Below are positions 30,764 to 34,768 of a DNA stretch of 64,000 bases, piece by piece; position 1 is the first letter of the stretch; each line of letters starts with the position of its first letter. A model generated the notes under the pieces. The model had not been told where the DNA came from, ran no database searches, and saw nothing but the letters and a program-made list of their open reading frames with translations. A program made the position numbers and the translations under genes. The DNA lies in contig NZ_JAIWHV010000002.1 of assembly GCF_020177375.1 (NCBI RefSeq), positions 62,001 to 126,000 on the forward strand. Reading direction: 5' to 3'. The DNA is from Saliphagus infecundisoli (GTDB lineage: Archaea; Halobacteriota; Halobacteria; Halobacteriales; Natrialbaceae).

Positions 30764-31424
30764 CGTCGGAGTGTGTCGTCTGTGGGGTCGTCGGTGTTCC
30801 GTCCGCCTCGTATTCGACAGGCGATTCCTCTCGTGCGGCCGTCCGGTCGTCGCCCCGGGCCAGTGCGGTCGTCCCGGTCCGGGAGATTTCGCGGATCCCG
30901 AACTGGGAGAAGGCCTCGACCGCGGCCTCGACCTTCTGGCGGCTGCCCGTGACCTGGATCGTCGCCGTCTCGGGGGTCGCGTCGACCGTCTTTCCGTCGT
31001 ACATCTCGGTGACTGCGGCGACCCGGTCGGGCCGGGTCGCGCTCACCTTGATGAGCATGAGTTCCCGGCGCATCGCGTCGGGCTCGAGTTCGCGCACCGA
31101 GATGACCGGCACGAGCTTTCGCAGTTGCTTTTTGGCCTGTTCGATCCCCGGCTCGTGTTCCTCGATGACGAGGGTGATCCGGGCGCGCTCTTCGTCCTCC
31201 GTGGGGCCGACGGTGAGGCTCTCGATGTTGAACTGGCGTCTCGAGAACAGCCCGGAGACGTCCGAGAGCACCCCCGGCTCGTGGGTCACGAGCGCCGAGA
31301 TGACCGTCCGACGGACCGCGGGTTCAGCCTCGACTTCGGGGTCGATCCGGATTCCCTGGGCGTTTCGCCGGCCCTCCGGACGCGGGCGTTCCTCGGGTCG
31401 GGGCCCCTCCAGACCCTGCGTCAT
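30756..31424 (-). CDS. ilvN: Acetolactate synthase regulatory subunit IlvN
   Basis: A 222-residue small subunit. The ACT domain is near residues 35-115 ([40 protein letters not shown]) and the ALS_ss C-terminal domain follows ([29 protein letters not shown]). It binds valine-type effectors and modulates IlvB. A Pro/Arg-rich N-terminal and an acidic C-terminal extension are halophile features. Its ATG overlaps the ilvB stop by 4 nt. Confidence 0.94.
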
Positions 31425-33205
31425 AGCTGGTCCTCCGTCAGCGCGAACTGACCGTTGTCGCCGCCGCTCGGGACCATCGGGTAGACGTTCGCTTGCGGAT
31501 CGACGTGGGCATCGATCACCGAGGGGCCATCGTAGTCGAGAGCGGCTTCGACGGTGTCGGCGACCTCGTCGTAGTCGTCGATCCGGAAGCCACGCGCGCC
31601 GAAGGCCTCCGCGAGCTTGTCGAACTCGGGACACCAGCCGTACTCCGAGGCCGAGTGTCGCCCTTCGAAGAAGGCGTCCTGCCACTGGCGGACCATCCCG
31701 ATGTACTCGTTGTTGAGAACGACGACCGTGATATCGAGGTTCTCCCGGACCGCGACGGCGAGTTCCTGCATCGTCATCAGGAACGAGCCGTCGCCCTCGA
31801 CACAGATGACCTCCTGGTCGTCCTCGGCGGCCAGCCGCGCGCCGATCGCCGCGGGGAAGCCATAGCCCATCGTTCCGAGGCCGTGACTCGAGACCCACGT
31901 CCGGGGCTCGGTGTAGGTCCAGTACTGGCAGGCCCACATCTGGTGTTGGCCGACGCCGGTGGTGACGATCGCCCGGTCGCTGGTCGCCTCGTCGACCGCC
32001 TCGACGACGAACTGGGGTTTGACCGGTTCGTCCTCGGGCGTGTCGTAGGCCATCGGGTACTCCGACTTCCACTGCTGGCACTGGGCACGCCACTTCTTTG
32101 CTCGAGGCGATTCCTCGACTTCCGCCGACAGTTGGTCGACGACCGTCGCGGCGTCGCCGACCAACGGATACTCCGCGTGGATGTTCTTGCTGATCTCGGC
32201 GGGGTCGATGTCGACGTGGATCACCTCGGCGTCGGGCGCGAACGTCTCGATTCCACCGGTGAGGCGGTCGTCGAAGCGGGTGCCGACGGCGATCAACGTA
32301 TCGCAGTGGGTGATCGCCATGTTGGCGTAGCCGGTGCCGTGCATCCCCGCCATCTCCATCGAGAGCTCGTGGTCCTCGGGGAAGGCACCGATCGCGGGCA
32401 TCGTCGTCGCGACCGGGATCTCGTGGTCGGTCGCGAACTCTCGACACTCCGCGCTCGCGTCGCCCTTGATGACTCCGCCGCCGAGCAAGAAGAGGGGTCG
32501 GTCGGCGCTCTCGATCCGGCGGGCCGCGGCGCGGACGACCTCGGGGTCGGCTCGCTCCTGGACGTCGTAGGTGTCGGGAACGCGGGCCTCGCCGGGTTCG
32601 TGCTCGGTGTCATCCAGGGTGACGTCCTTCGGGAGGTCCACGAGCGTCGGTCCCGGCCGGCCGGTGTTCGCGAGCGCGAACGCCTCGCCGACGTCGTCGC
32701 CGACGGTGTCCGGATCGCTCGAGAACGTGTTGGCCTTCGTGATCGGCGTCGTCACCCCGGTGGTGTCGGTCTCCTGGAAGGCGTCGTTGCCGACCATTTC
32801 CGTGGGGACCTGGCCGGTCAGCGCAACCACGGGATCGGAGTCCATGTCGGCGTCGGCGAGCCCCGTAACGAGGTTCGTCGCACCCGGACCCGACGTCGCG
32901 AGGCAGATCCCGGGCTCGCCGCTGACGATCCCGTAGGCGTCGGCGGCGTGGGAGGCCCCTTGCTCGTGGGCCATCGTGACGTGCCTGATGTCGGAATCGT
33001 AGAGGGCGTCGTAGACGGGCATGATCGCCCCGCCCTGGACGCCGAAGGCGTACTCGACGCCGACGTTCTCTAAGGCGCGGATCACCGACTGGGCGCCCGT
33101 GGTGACGGGTTCGGCGGTGGGTTCCGCGTCGGGTTCCGGGTCGTCCGATCGCTCCTGTGCTCGTTCCTGTTCGGGAGTCGCGACCGACGGGGCGGGCTCG
33201 CTCAT
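31421..33205 (-). CDS. ilvB: Acetolactate synthase catalytic subunit IlvB
   Basis: A 594-residue thiamine-diphosphate enzyme that condenses pyruvate with pyruvate or 2-oxobutyrate. It has the ThDP-activating Glu in MAHEQGASHAADAYG and the Mg-ThDP motif GDGSFLMTMQELAVAV...NN. An acidic ~35-residue N-terminal extension precedes the first domain. The ATG at 33205 has a strong Shine-Dalgarno sequence (GGGGGGAG, 33210-33217) 4 nt upstream, which is notable because the promoter's own start site lies 210 nt away, beside a small upstream ORF. Confidence 0.95.
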   Translation of the reverse strand: MSEPAPSVATPEQERAQERSDDPEPDAEPTAEPVTTGAQSVIRALENVGVEYAFGVQGGAIMPVYDALYDSDIRHVTMAHEQGASHAADAYGIVSGEPGICLATSGPGATNLVTGLADADMDSDPVVALTGQVPTEMVGNDAFQETDTTGVTTPITKANTFSSDPDTVGDDVGEAFALANTGRPGPTLVDLPKDVTLDDTEHEPGEARVPDTYDVQERADPEVVRAAARRIESADRPLFLLGGGVIKGDASAECREFATDHEIPVATTMPAIGAFPEDHELSMEMAGMHGTGYANMAITHCDTLIAVGTRFDDRLTGGIETFAPDAEVIHVDIDPAEISKNIHAEYPLVGDAATVVDQLSAEVEESPRAKKWRAQCQQWKSEYPMAYDTPEDEPVKPQFVVEAVDEATSDRAIVTTGVGQHQMWACQYWTYTEPRTWVSSHGLGTMGYGFPAAIGARLAAEDDQEVICVEGDGSFLMTMQELAVAVRENLDITVVVLNNEYIGMVRQWQDAFFEGRHSASEYGWCPEFDKLAEAFGARGFRIDDYDEVADTVEAALDYDGPSVIDAHVDPQANVYPMVPSGGDNGQFALTEDQL

Positions 33206-33338
33206 CGGGCTCCCCCCGTTCGTGTCGGTCGCATCCGTCGGTTCGGTCGGTGTCGTGTCATCTGGTGTGGCTGTCGGCGGCAGGCGTCGCTCGGAAAACG
33301 GTACGGGTTCGGGGTCGGGAGAAGGGGTGGTGTGGGGG
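33206..33338 (-). promoter_or_regulatory. ilvB leader: C-rich spacer and Shine-Dalgarno that can pair
   Basis: Between the upstream ORF stop and the ilvB ATG lie 133 nt. A CTCCC (33317-33321) can pair with the GGGAG of the ilvB ribosome-binding site (33210-33217). A hairpin GGGGC-CGCCTA-GCCCC (33335-33350) covers the upstream ORF stop codon. Alternative pairing that depends on ribosome position is therefore possible. This is a structural suggestion, not a demonstrated switch. Confidence 0.4.
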
Positions 33339-33413
33339 CTAGGCGGCCCCTACAATAGCGAGCGACGCGACGCTGTCGGCGCCGAGTTCCGGCTCGAGTG
33401 CGCGTCGCGTCAT
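33339..33413 (-). CDS. Leaderless 24-codon upstream ORF, candidate ilv leader peptide
   Basis: ATG at 33413 encodes MTRRALEPELGADSVASLAI then VGAA and stop. Nine of the last twelve residues are Ala, Val, Leu or Ile (Ala 4, Val 2, Ile and Leu), in keeping with control by branched-chain aminoacyl-tRNA supply. The TATA box at 33440-33445 places transcription start at about 33416-33418, on or next to the start codon, the usual arrangement for leaderless translation in haloarchaea. A GTG at 33416 in frame is the alternative start. Confidence 0.5.
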   Translation of the reverse strand: MTRRALEPELGADSVASLAIVGAA

Positions 33414-33439
33414 CACTACCCTGGTAGGGGACCCCATCC

Positions 33440-33445
33440 ATATAA
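33440..33445 (-). promoter_or_regulatory. TATA box of the ilvB operon
   Basis: Minus-strand TTATAT, in context GGTTATATGG, is about 26 nt before the predicted start site at 33416-33418 and is the only good TATA element in the 340-bp gap upstream of ilvB. Confidence 0.6.
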
Positions 33446-33546
33446 CCGTTGCGTGGCCGGCATCGTTTGCGTCCCGAGCCCGCGACGCGAGCCCGCGAGC
33501 CCTCCAGCCGGCGCTGGCCACCCGTGAAAGCCGCTGATCGGGGCAT

Positions 33547-34693: not shown

Positions 34694-34768
34694 TCAGTGG
34701 AGTCTAACGTGCCCTGGAAGAACTCGACCGCCCTGAGGGGTCTCAGAGCCGGTGTCTGGTGTAGACAT
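34694..34768 (-). other. 24-codon ORF at the leuA promoter, one base out of frame with leuA
   Basis: The ATG at 34768 lies about 30 nt from the TATA box, where the leuA start is expected, but its frame (MSTPDTGSETPQGGRVLPGH...) stops at 34694. Removing one base between this ATG and 34728 would fuse it to the conserved VEFFQGTLDSTEEIE segment of LeuA. It is either the true leuA start broken by a one-base insertion or a separate leader ORF. Confidence 0.45.

Follow-up and report, generated by a model that had tools for sequence, protein, structure and literature searches.

We find that the leader of the ilvB operon in Saliphagus infecundisoli, a member of the Natrialbaceae, is best explained as a ribosome-sensing attenuator that uses one hairpin and has no demonstrable antiterminator. 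The leader is on the minus strand of the 64,000-nt stretch of contig NZ_JAIWHV010000002.1 that we analysed (the window), where a short intergenic stretch separates it from the upstream leuA (start near 34.73 kb) and ilvB, ilvN and ilvC follow it. The product of ilvB is the first enzyme of valine and isoleucine synthesis. It combines a leaderless ORF ending at an Ile-Val codon pair (uORF1), a GC hairpin directly after that pair, a G-poor spacer, and a second small ORF (uORF2) that overlaps the ilvB start. In Table 1, we report the positions of these parts. A preliminary description of the window had located the 24-codon uORF1 behind its TATA box and proposed it as a possible attenuator of ilvB. 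The ORF is where it was said to be, and the proposal gains support across the class from the frame, the TATA spacing, the GTA codon and the hairpin; the part of it that relied on an arm pairing with the Shine-Dalgarno (SD) site is unsupported.

Table 1. Parts of the ilvB leader, in window coordinates.
Feature	Position	Strand	Basis
TATA box TTATAT of the ilvB leader transcript	33440..33445	-	sequence; 32-nt spacing recurs in relatives
uORF1, predicted leaderless 24-codon ORF MTRRALEPELGADSVASLAIVGAA, stop TAG	33339..33413	-	frame-blind test, 101/101
Control codons ATT-GTA (Ile-Val), GTA invariant	33351..33356	-	GTA in 130/130 ilvB-anchored loci
Putative attenuator hairpin GGGGC/GCCCC, uORF1 stop in loop and 3' arm	33335..33350	-	covariation, MFE
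Spacer, pyrimidine-rich, G-poor	33262..33334	-	base composition; U-runs enriched in relatives
uORF2 MTRHRPNRRMRPTRTGGAR, TGA overlapping the ilvB ATG (ATGA)	33202..33261	-	ATGA in 110/130 loci, frame conservation
Shine-Dalgarno-like GGGGGGAG of ilvB, within uORF2	33210..33217	-	SD-like motif in 101/110 relatives
ilvB, acetolactate synthase large subunit, proposed regulated gene; ATG 33205-33203	31421..33205	-	ilvN, ilvC downstream

Spread of the element across the Halobacteria

We gathered ilvB and its upstream DNA from relatives, and searched genomes with the core pattern ATYGTAGGGGN{3,12}CCCC. The core (ATT or ATC, GTA, GGGG, a loop, CCCC) is present in 380 of 394 Halobacteria genomes and in 81 of 86 genera, mostly once per genome, where the position upstream of ilvB was checked for 130 distinct ilvB-anchored loci and not for every one of the 380 matches. 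The reversed pattern, which serves as a control, has few matches in Halobacteria. In the genome of S. infecundisoli itself, the site ahead of ilvB is the sole match. Outside the Halobacteria, 12 of 119 genomes match the core pattern, which is near the reversed-pattern control and at chance level. Ten of the 14 genomes that lack the core pattern retain GTA and the hairpin in a variant form, with Val-Val, Leu-Val, Arg-Val or Ile-Val codons. The variant control codons are GTA-GTA in loci L150 and L151, GTC-GTA in L159, CTC-GTA in L158 and CGC-GTA in L157. The variant stems are GTAGGGCC/GGCCCTAC or GTACGGGCC/GGCCC(G) in L152 to L155, and the 3' arm is CTCCCTAC in L156; some of them are compensated, as in GGGCC/GGCCC and CGGGCC/GGCCCG. 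The element is absent from two families (L160 and L161) whose ilvB is about 57% identical to that of the window. The other two of the 14 genomes are one with an incomplete contig and one without an ilvB match.

Nearly every collected locus has a short ORF ending in Ile-Val-Gly-Ala or Ile-Val-Gly-Val directly before the hairpin. A rule that combines a TATA box, an ATG and a short ORF is positive for 29 of 29 ilvB loci of relatives, and for only 1 of 150 control loci (ilvD 0/30, hisG 1/30, trpE 0/30, pheS 0/30 and trpS 0/30); similar leaders at these five genes were considered and rejected, none being conserved. The loci are phylogenetically related and the counts are not of independent events, and the strength of the case comes from the spread over nine of 11 families, from length changes that keep the frame and from compensatory changes in the stem. 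The conserved leader element is almost certainly real. It corresponds to no Rfam family, with no match at E≤1 in the leader and none at the gathering score in the window.

We have also observed related sequences away from ilvB. Loci L117 and L118 (genomes G217 and G365) carry a second copy of the leader, with a TATA box, a leaderless ORF ending in LIVGV and a stop, and the hairpin, which stands ahead of a tiny ORF (MTDENSTRRPTNRDRPKKTMADISHTPPYEAPDANRVFERGG...) and not of ilvB. In several genomes of genus g36 (G266, G138, G285 and G327), ATTGTAGGGGTGCATCCCC recurs besides the ilvB site; where this extra site was read (L142, in G266), it has no leader architecture.

The leaderless ORF and its control codons

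The position of the uORF1 start is what identifies the frame. A TATA-like box is found 32 nt ahead of the start in 99 of 119 loci; in the window, this is the distance from the first T of the box to the A of the ATG (33413-33411). From this spacing, the transcript is predicted to start at, or within 3 nt of, the GTG (33416) or ATG (33413). The preliminary description had placed the mRNA start at this GTG/ATG; the TATA-spaced ATG is conserved but the GTG is not, and the predicted start is the ATG. In a frame-blind search for ATGs 31-34 nt past a TATA-like box ahead of ilvB, all 101 are in frame with the GTA, which bears out the conservation of reading frame in relatives that had been proposed as a check. 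The distance from ATG to GTA changes by whole codons, between 45 and 117 nt (15 to 39 codons). We rejected the open frame as evidence in itself: another frame is also open in all 119 loci, so that openness is weak evidence and the position of the ATG carries the case.

The peptide itself drifts. In the variable part of uORF1, close relatives differ about equally at the three codon positions (0.135, 0.144 and 0.165), and the 988 nonsynonymous versus 382 synonymous codon differences indicate no codon-position or synonymous constraint. The preliminary description had looked for a conserved peptide with synonymous variation, and the outcome is the opposite, with the GTA fixed at the nucleotide level. 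Similarly, of the richness in Ala, Leu, Val and Ile that it remarked on, the terminal Ile-Val(GTA) is conserved, while Ala and Leu are incidental. Only this terminal pair of the predicted uORF1 peptide is conserved. A frame that is kept around a drifting peptide suggests that the codons act rather than the product, and that a ribosome must reach the last codons; judged from the sequences, a codon-sensing ORF fits better than a functional peptide.

GTA encodes the control Val in each of the 130 ilvB-anchored loci, yet it makes up 0.4% of the 5,444 Val codons in their ilvB genes. The search patterns included GTA, and the upstream regions fetched via ilvB alone also show it; no other codon is seen at this place among the ilvB leaders examined. 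The codon before it is ATT (102) or ATC (18) in 120 distinct pattern-defined sites, with exceptions that are Val or Leu, rarely Arg. ATT is favoured here, compared with 7% of the Ile codons in ilvB. Most loci have at least one further Ile codon within three codons upstream of the control pair. In the genome of S. infecundisoli, we detect one tRNA-Val(UAC) gene and one tRNA-Ile(GAU) gene. The predicted uORF1, with its ORF, frame and spacing conserved, is thus a short leader ORF directly upstream of a biosynthetic operon, and its [I/V/L]-Val(GTA) control codons specify end products of that operon, as in leader-peptide attenuators. In some relatives the end of uORF1 is different: in L120 (genome G410) the stop is changed to TGG in the hairpin and the ORF runs far past the hairpin, which is intact, and in Natronorubrum-type relatives the stop comes after the hairpin. 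A separate observation on tRNA genes is an array of 13 within 3 kb of a 34-kb contig (genome G000, contig C25, 6500-9700; L348), which duplicates tRNAs from elsewhere in the genome and resembles the tRNA clusters of viruses or plasmids.

The hairpin, the spacer and the ORF that overlaps ilvB

In the window, GGGGC (33350-33346) and GCCCC (33339-33335) form a stem of 5 bp with a loop of 6 nt, and the uORF1 TAG (33341-33339), about 150 nt ahead of ilvB, is located in the loop and the 3' arm, in agreement with the preliminary description. Across loci, the loop is mostly 3 to 6 nt, and stem positions 1, 4, 5 and 6 show double changes (G-C/C-G; C-G/U-A; G-C, U-A and C-G). The hairpin is part of the MFE fold of 95 of 99 full leaders, with a mean energy of -12.5 kcal/mol. 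RNAalifold, applied to a MAFFT alignment of the whole leader, recovers no stem other than the one at GGG/CCC. Among the full leaders we find this one conserved hairpin, and no competing antiterminator or conserved alternative fold. GTAGGGG is invariant even at wobble-tolerant positions; this may reflect either a rare control codon or an RNA ligand that recognises the sequence.

The hairpin is followed by a stretch of about 70 nt with 18% G and 40% C, in which T is raised, at 27%, in the first 30 nt. TTTT occurs within 70 nt of the hairpin in 38% of the loci, versus 7% expected from shuffles. These are a minority, and across loci there is no conserved U-run after the hairpin, so that an intrinsic terminator is not evident; with one conserved hairpin, the ilvB leader does not show the mutually exclusive antiterminator and U-run terminator hairpins that mark ribosome-mediated leader-peptide attenuators. 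A downstream CTCCC had been proposed to pair with the ilvB SD. This pairing is predicted in the window sequence (0.98), and it does not hold up in relatives, at 0.42 versus 0.49 for shuffled spacers.

A second small ORF at ilvB, uORF2, is newly noticed here and was overlooked by the preliminary description. It typically has 17-25 codons, and it begins 65-122 nt after the GTA in all but two loci. In the uORF2 region, 116 of 126 ATGs are in the uORF2 frame, and in the last 60 nt this frame is closed in none of 125 loci, compared with 63 and 46 for the other two frames. An SD is found for uORF2 in only 2 of 110 loci; ilvB does have one, as had been described. We considered whether uORF2 has a leaderless transcript of its own and rejected it, as TTT[TA] is rightly placed in only 26 of 110 loci. 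An overlapping stop and start behind an open upstream ORF is the arrangement of ATGA termination-reinitiation pairs. In tests with H. volcanii and E. coli, 13 of 14 overlapping gene pairs were strictly coupled; for the H. volcanii pairs the coupling is termination-reinitiation, in which an SD often helps reinitiation and not de novo initiation (PMC6728339). The ilvB leader resembles these Haloferax pairs in that the upstream stop overlaps the downstream start and the SD is inside the upstream ORF; it differs in that its upstream ORF belongs to a leader and has about 20 codons (PMC6728339). The overlap is seen directly in the sequences, and we infer the coupling of uORF2 and ilvB from those other Haloferax pairs. 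Reinitiation at the ATGA would explain why ilvB has an SD although the transcript begins with a leaderless ORF.

Proposed mechanism, alternatives and known systems

We consider it moderately probable that the leader works by ribosome-mediated attenuation in response to Ile/Val supply, with one hairpin, followed by ATGA coupling into ilvB. Given the conserved TATA-ATG spacing, the transcript would start at the uORF1 ATG and the first ribosome would load leaderless at its 5' end. The ribosome would then reach Ile-Val(GTA), with the hairpin directly after it and the stop in the loop or 3' arm. When Ile and Val are ample, the ribosome would pass, terminate and leave, and the GC hairpin would close behind RNA polymerase; the transcript would then be stopped or destabilised along the spacer, which is rich in pyrimidines, poor in G and, at that point, free of ribosomes. 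If charged tRNA-Val(UAC) or tRNA-Ile is scarce, the ribosome would wait with GTA in the A site. Judging from bacterial footprints, a ribosome in this position should cover the 5' arm with its leading edge, so that no hairpin forms and transcription would go on to uORF2 and ilvBNC. uORF2 would be translated and the ribosome handed to ilvB at the ATGA, with the ilvB SD serving reinitiation.

The same sensor could instead control translation, with either the hairpin or a spacer pairing that the stalled ribosome sets free governing access to uORF2, ilvB following by ATGA coupling, and the transcript always full length. This is a serious rival, although we regard it as rather unlikely. The strongly conserved uORF2 frame and ATGA overlap, the contrast between the rare SD of uORF2 (2/110) and the common SD of ilvB (101/110), and the lack of a conserved U-run terminator agree with it, as does the stability of untranslated mRNA stretches in H. 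volcanii (PMC6728339); yet we find no conserved pairing of the leader with the uORF2 start or the ilvB SD, and the hairpin is about 70 nt upstream of uORF2. Transcription attenuation is favoured because a hairpin alone terminates in H. volcanii, where 59% of reporter transcripts ended at an inserted hairpin, compared with 95% for T5C (PMC7237163), and because FttA-dependent termination is proposed to compete with the coupled ribosome (PMC11616081).

Other alternatives do without codon sensing. If the palindrome GTAGGGG-N-CCCC were bound by a regulatory protein, as an operator or as an RNA site, and the ORF were incidental, the nucleotide-level invariance of GTAGGGG would be explained, and CCCCTAC indeed completes the palindrome in 31 of 130 loci. 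We consider this improbable: every one of the 101 TATA-spaced ATGs shares the frame of the GTA, and an Ile, Val or Leu codon almost always comes directly before that GTA. A loop that ranges from 3 to 6 nt, with covarying stem pairs, is also unlike a DNA operator, which would have half-sites at a fixed spacing and no RNA-type covariation. A nascent-peptide arrest of the TnaC type, in which a C-terminal IVGA stalls the ribosome in response to Ile/Val or another ligand, is quite improbable. IVGA or IVGV does precede the stop in most loci, but wherever the stem differs, the Gly and Ala differ too (IVRAR, RVRA and IVGPA in L152-L155), residues continue after IVGA in nine distinct loci, and the upstream residues are not conserved, so that uORF1 has no conserved codon-independent peptide of the TnaC/SecM type. 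That the uORF1 product is a functional micropeptide is hardly credible, even with a translated-looking ORF present class-wide, given 15 to 39 codons before GTA and the absence of protein-level constraint outside the last residues.

The codon-sensing attenuation proposed for the ilvB leader has bacterial counterparts. Leader-peptide attenuation is a textbook bacterial mechanism that relies on coupled transcription and translation, and the bacterial branched-chain amino acid (BCAA) operons with ribosome-mediated transcription attenuators include ilvL/ilvGMEDA, ivbL/ilvBN and leuL. Like these, the ilvB leader has a short ORF before the operon, control codons (some of them rare) for the amino acids that the operon makes, and a hairpin where the ORF ends. 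It differs from them in being archaeal, in having a leaderless ORF with 1-3 control codons rather than a long run, in a single hairpin that carries the stop without a demonstrable antiterminator or U-run, and in a second ORF coupled, as we propose, to ilvB by the ATGA. Within licensed PMC papers, our literature searches for archaeal or haloarchaeal leader-peptide attenuation gave bacterial systems only, and ilvB1 is absent from the H. volcanii uORF table (PMC4983044). The Corynebacterium ilvBNC uORF and the ilvB-II motif are similar in placing a conserved regulatory uORF ahead of ilvB; they differ in that the attenuator is bacterial and has three hairpins, with no sequence relationship to the haloarchaeal leader shown (PMC10272879, PMC11857589).

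The neighbouring leuA also has an unusual start. In the window (34694-34768, minus strand), a strong TATA box precedes a leaderless ATG (34768), which is offset by +1 from the LeuA frame (VEFFQGT...). Among haloarchaeal loci (L005-L065 and others), the TATA-spaced ATG is out of frame in the same phase in 73 of 77 distinct loci, and 66 of the 77 lack an in-frame ATG, GTG or TTG within 90 nt. In all 77 loci the frame of this ATG contains ...CGA GTT CTT..., and it usually meets a stop 32-35 nt inside leuA; the invariance of CTT cannot be separated from that of TTC TTC (Phe), as read in the LeuA frame. A paper on structured RNA candidates reportedly includes a 'leuA-Halobacteria' motif. The start problem of leuA2 (HVO_1510), for which a CTG start or slippage and a leucine dependence have been suggested, is similar to the ilvB leader in concerning a BCAA gene with a leaderless ATG, there out of frame, and an ilvB neighbour; unlike the ilvB leader, it is a frame puzzle in a coding start, without the IV-GTA hairpin (PMC8305020).

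Tentatively, haloarchaea may control BCAA synthesis with two leaderless ORFs that act as a pair of sensors: at ilvB, an attenuator for Ile/Val with a single hairpin, and at leuA, a frame switch that depends on Leu. Ribosome occupancy might then directly control archaeal transcription termination, in an attenuation class without an antiterminator. The ilvB leader seems to be an archaeal counterpart of the leader-peptide switches with which bacteria sense a shortage of amino acids. Its putative rare-codon sensor (GTA) and ORF-coupled ilvB start are overlooked by gene annotation. It would offer a function for leaderless initiation, in which the sensing ribosome enters at the 5'-terminal nucleotide of the growing transcript. 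The leader is found in almost the whole class, including Haloferax, where it belongs to HVO_1508 of H. volcanii, and this makes ribosome control of archaeal transcription termination directly testable.
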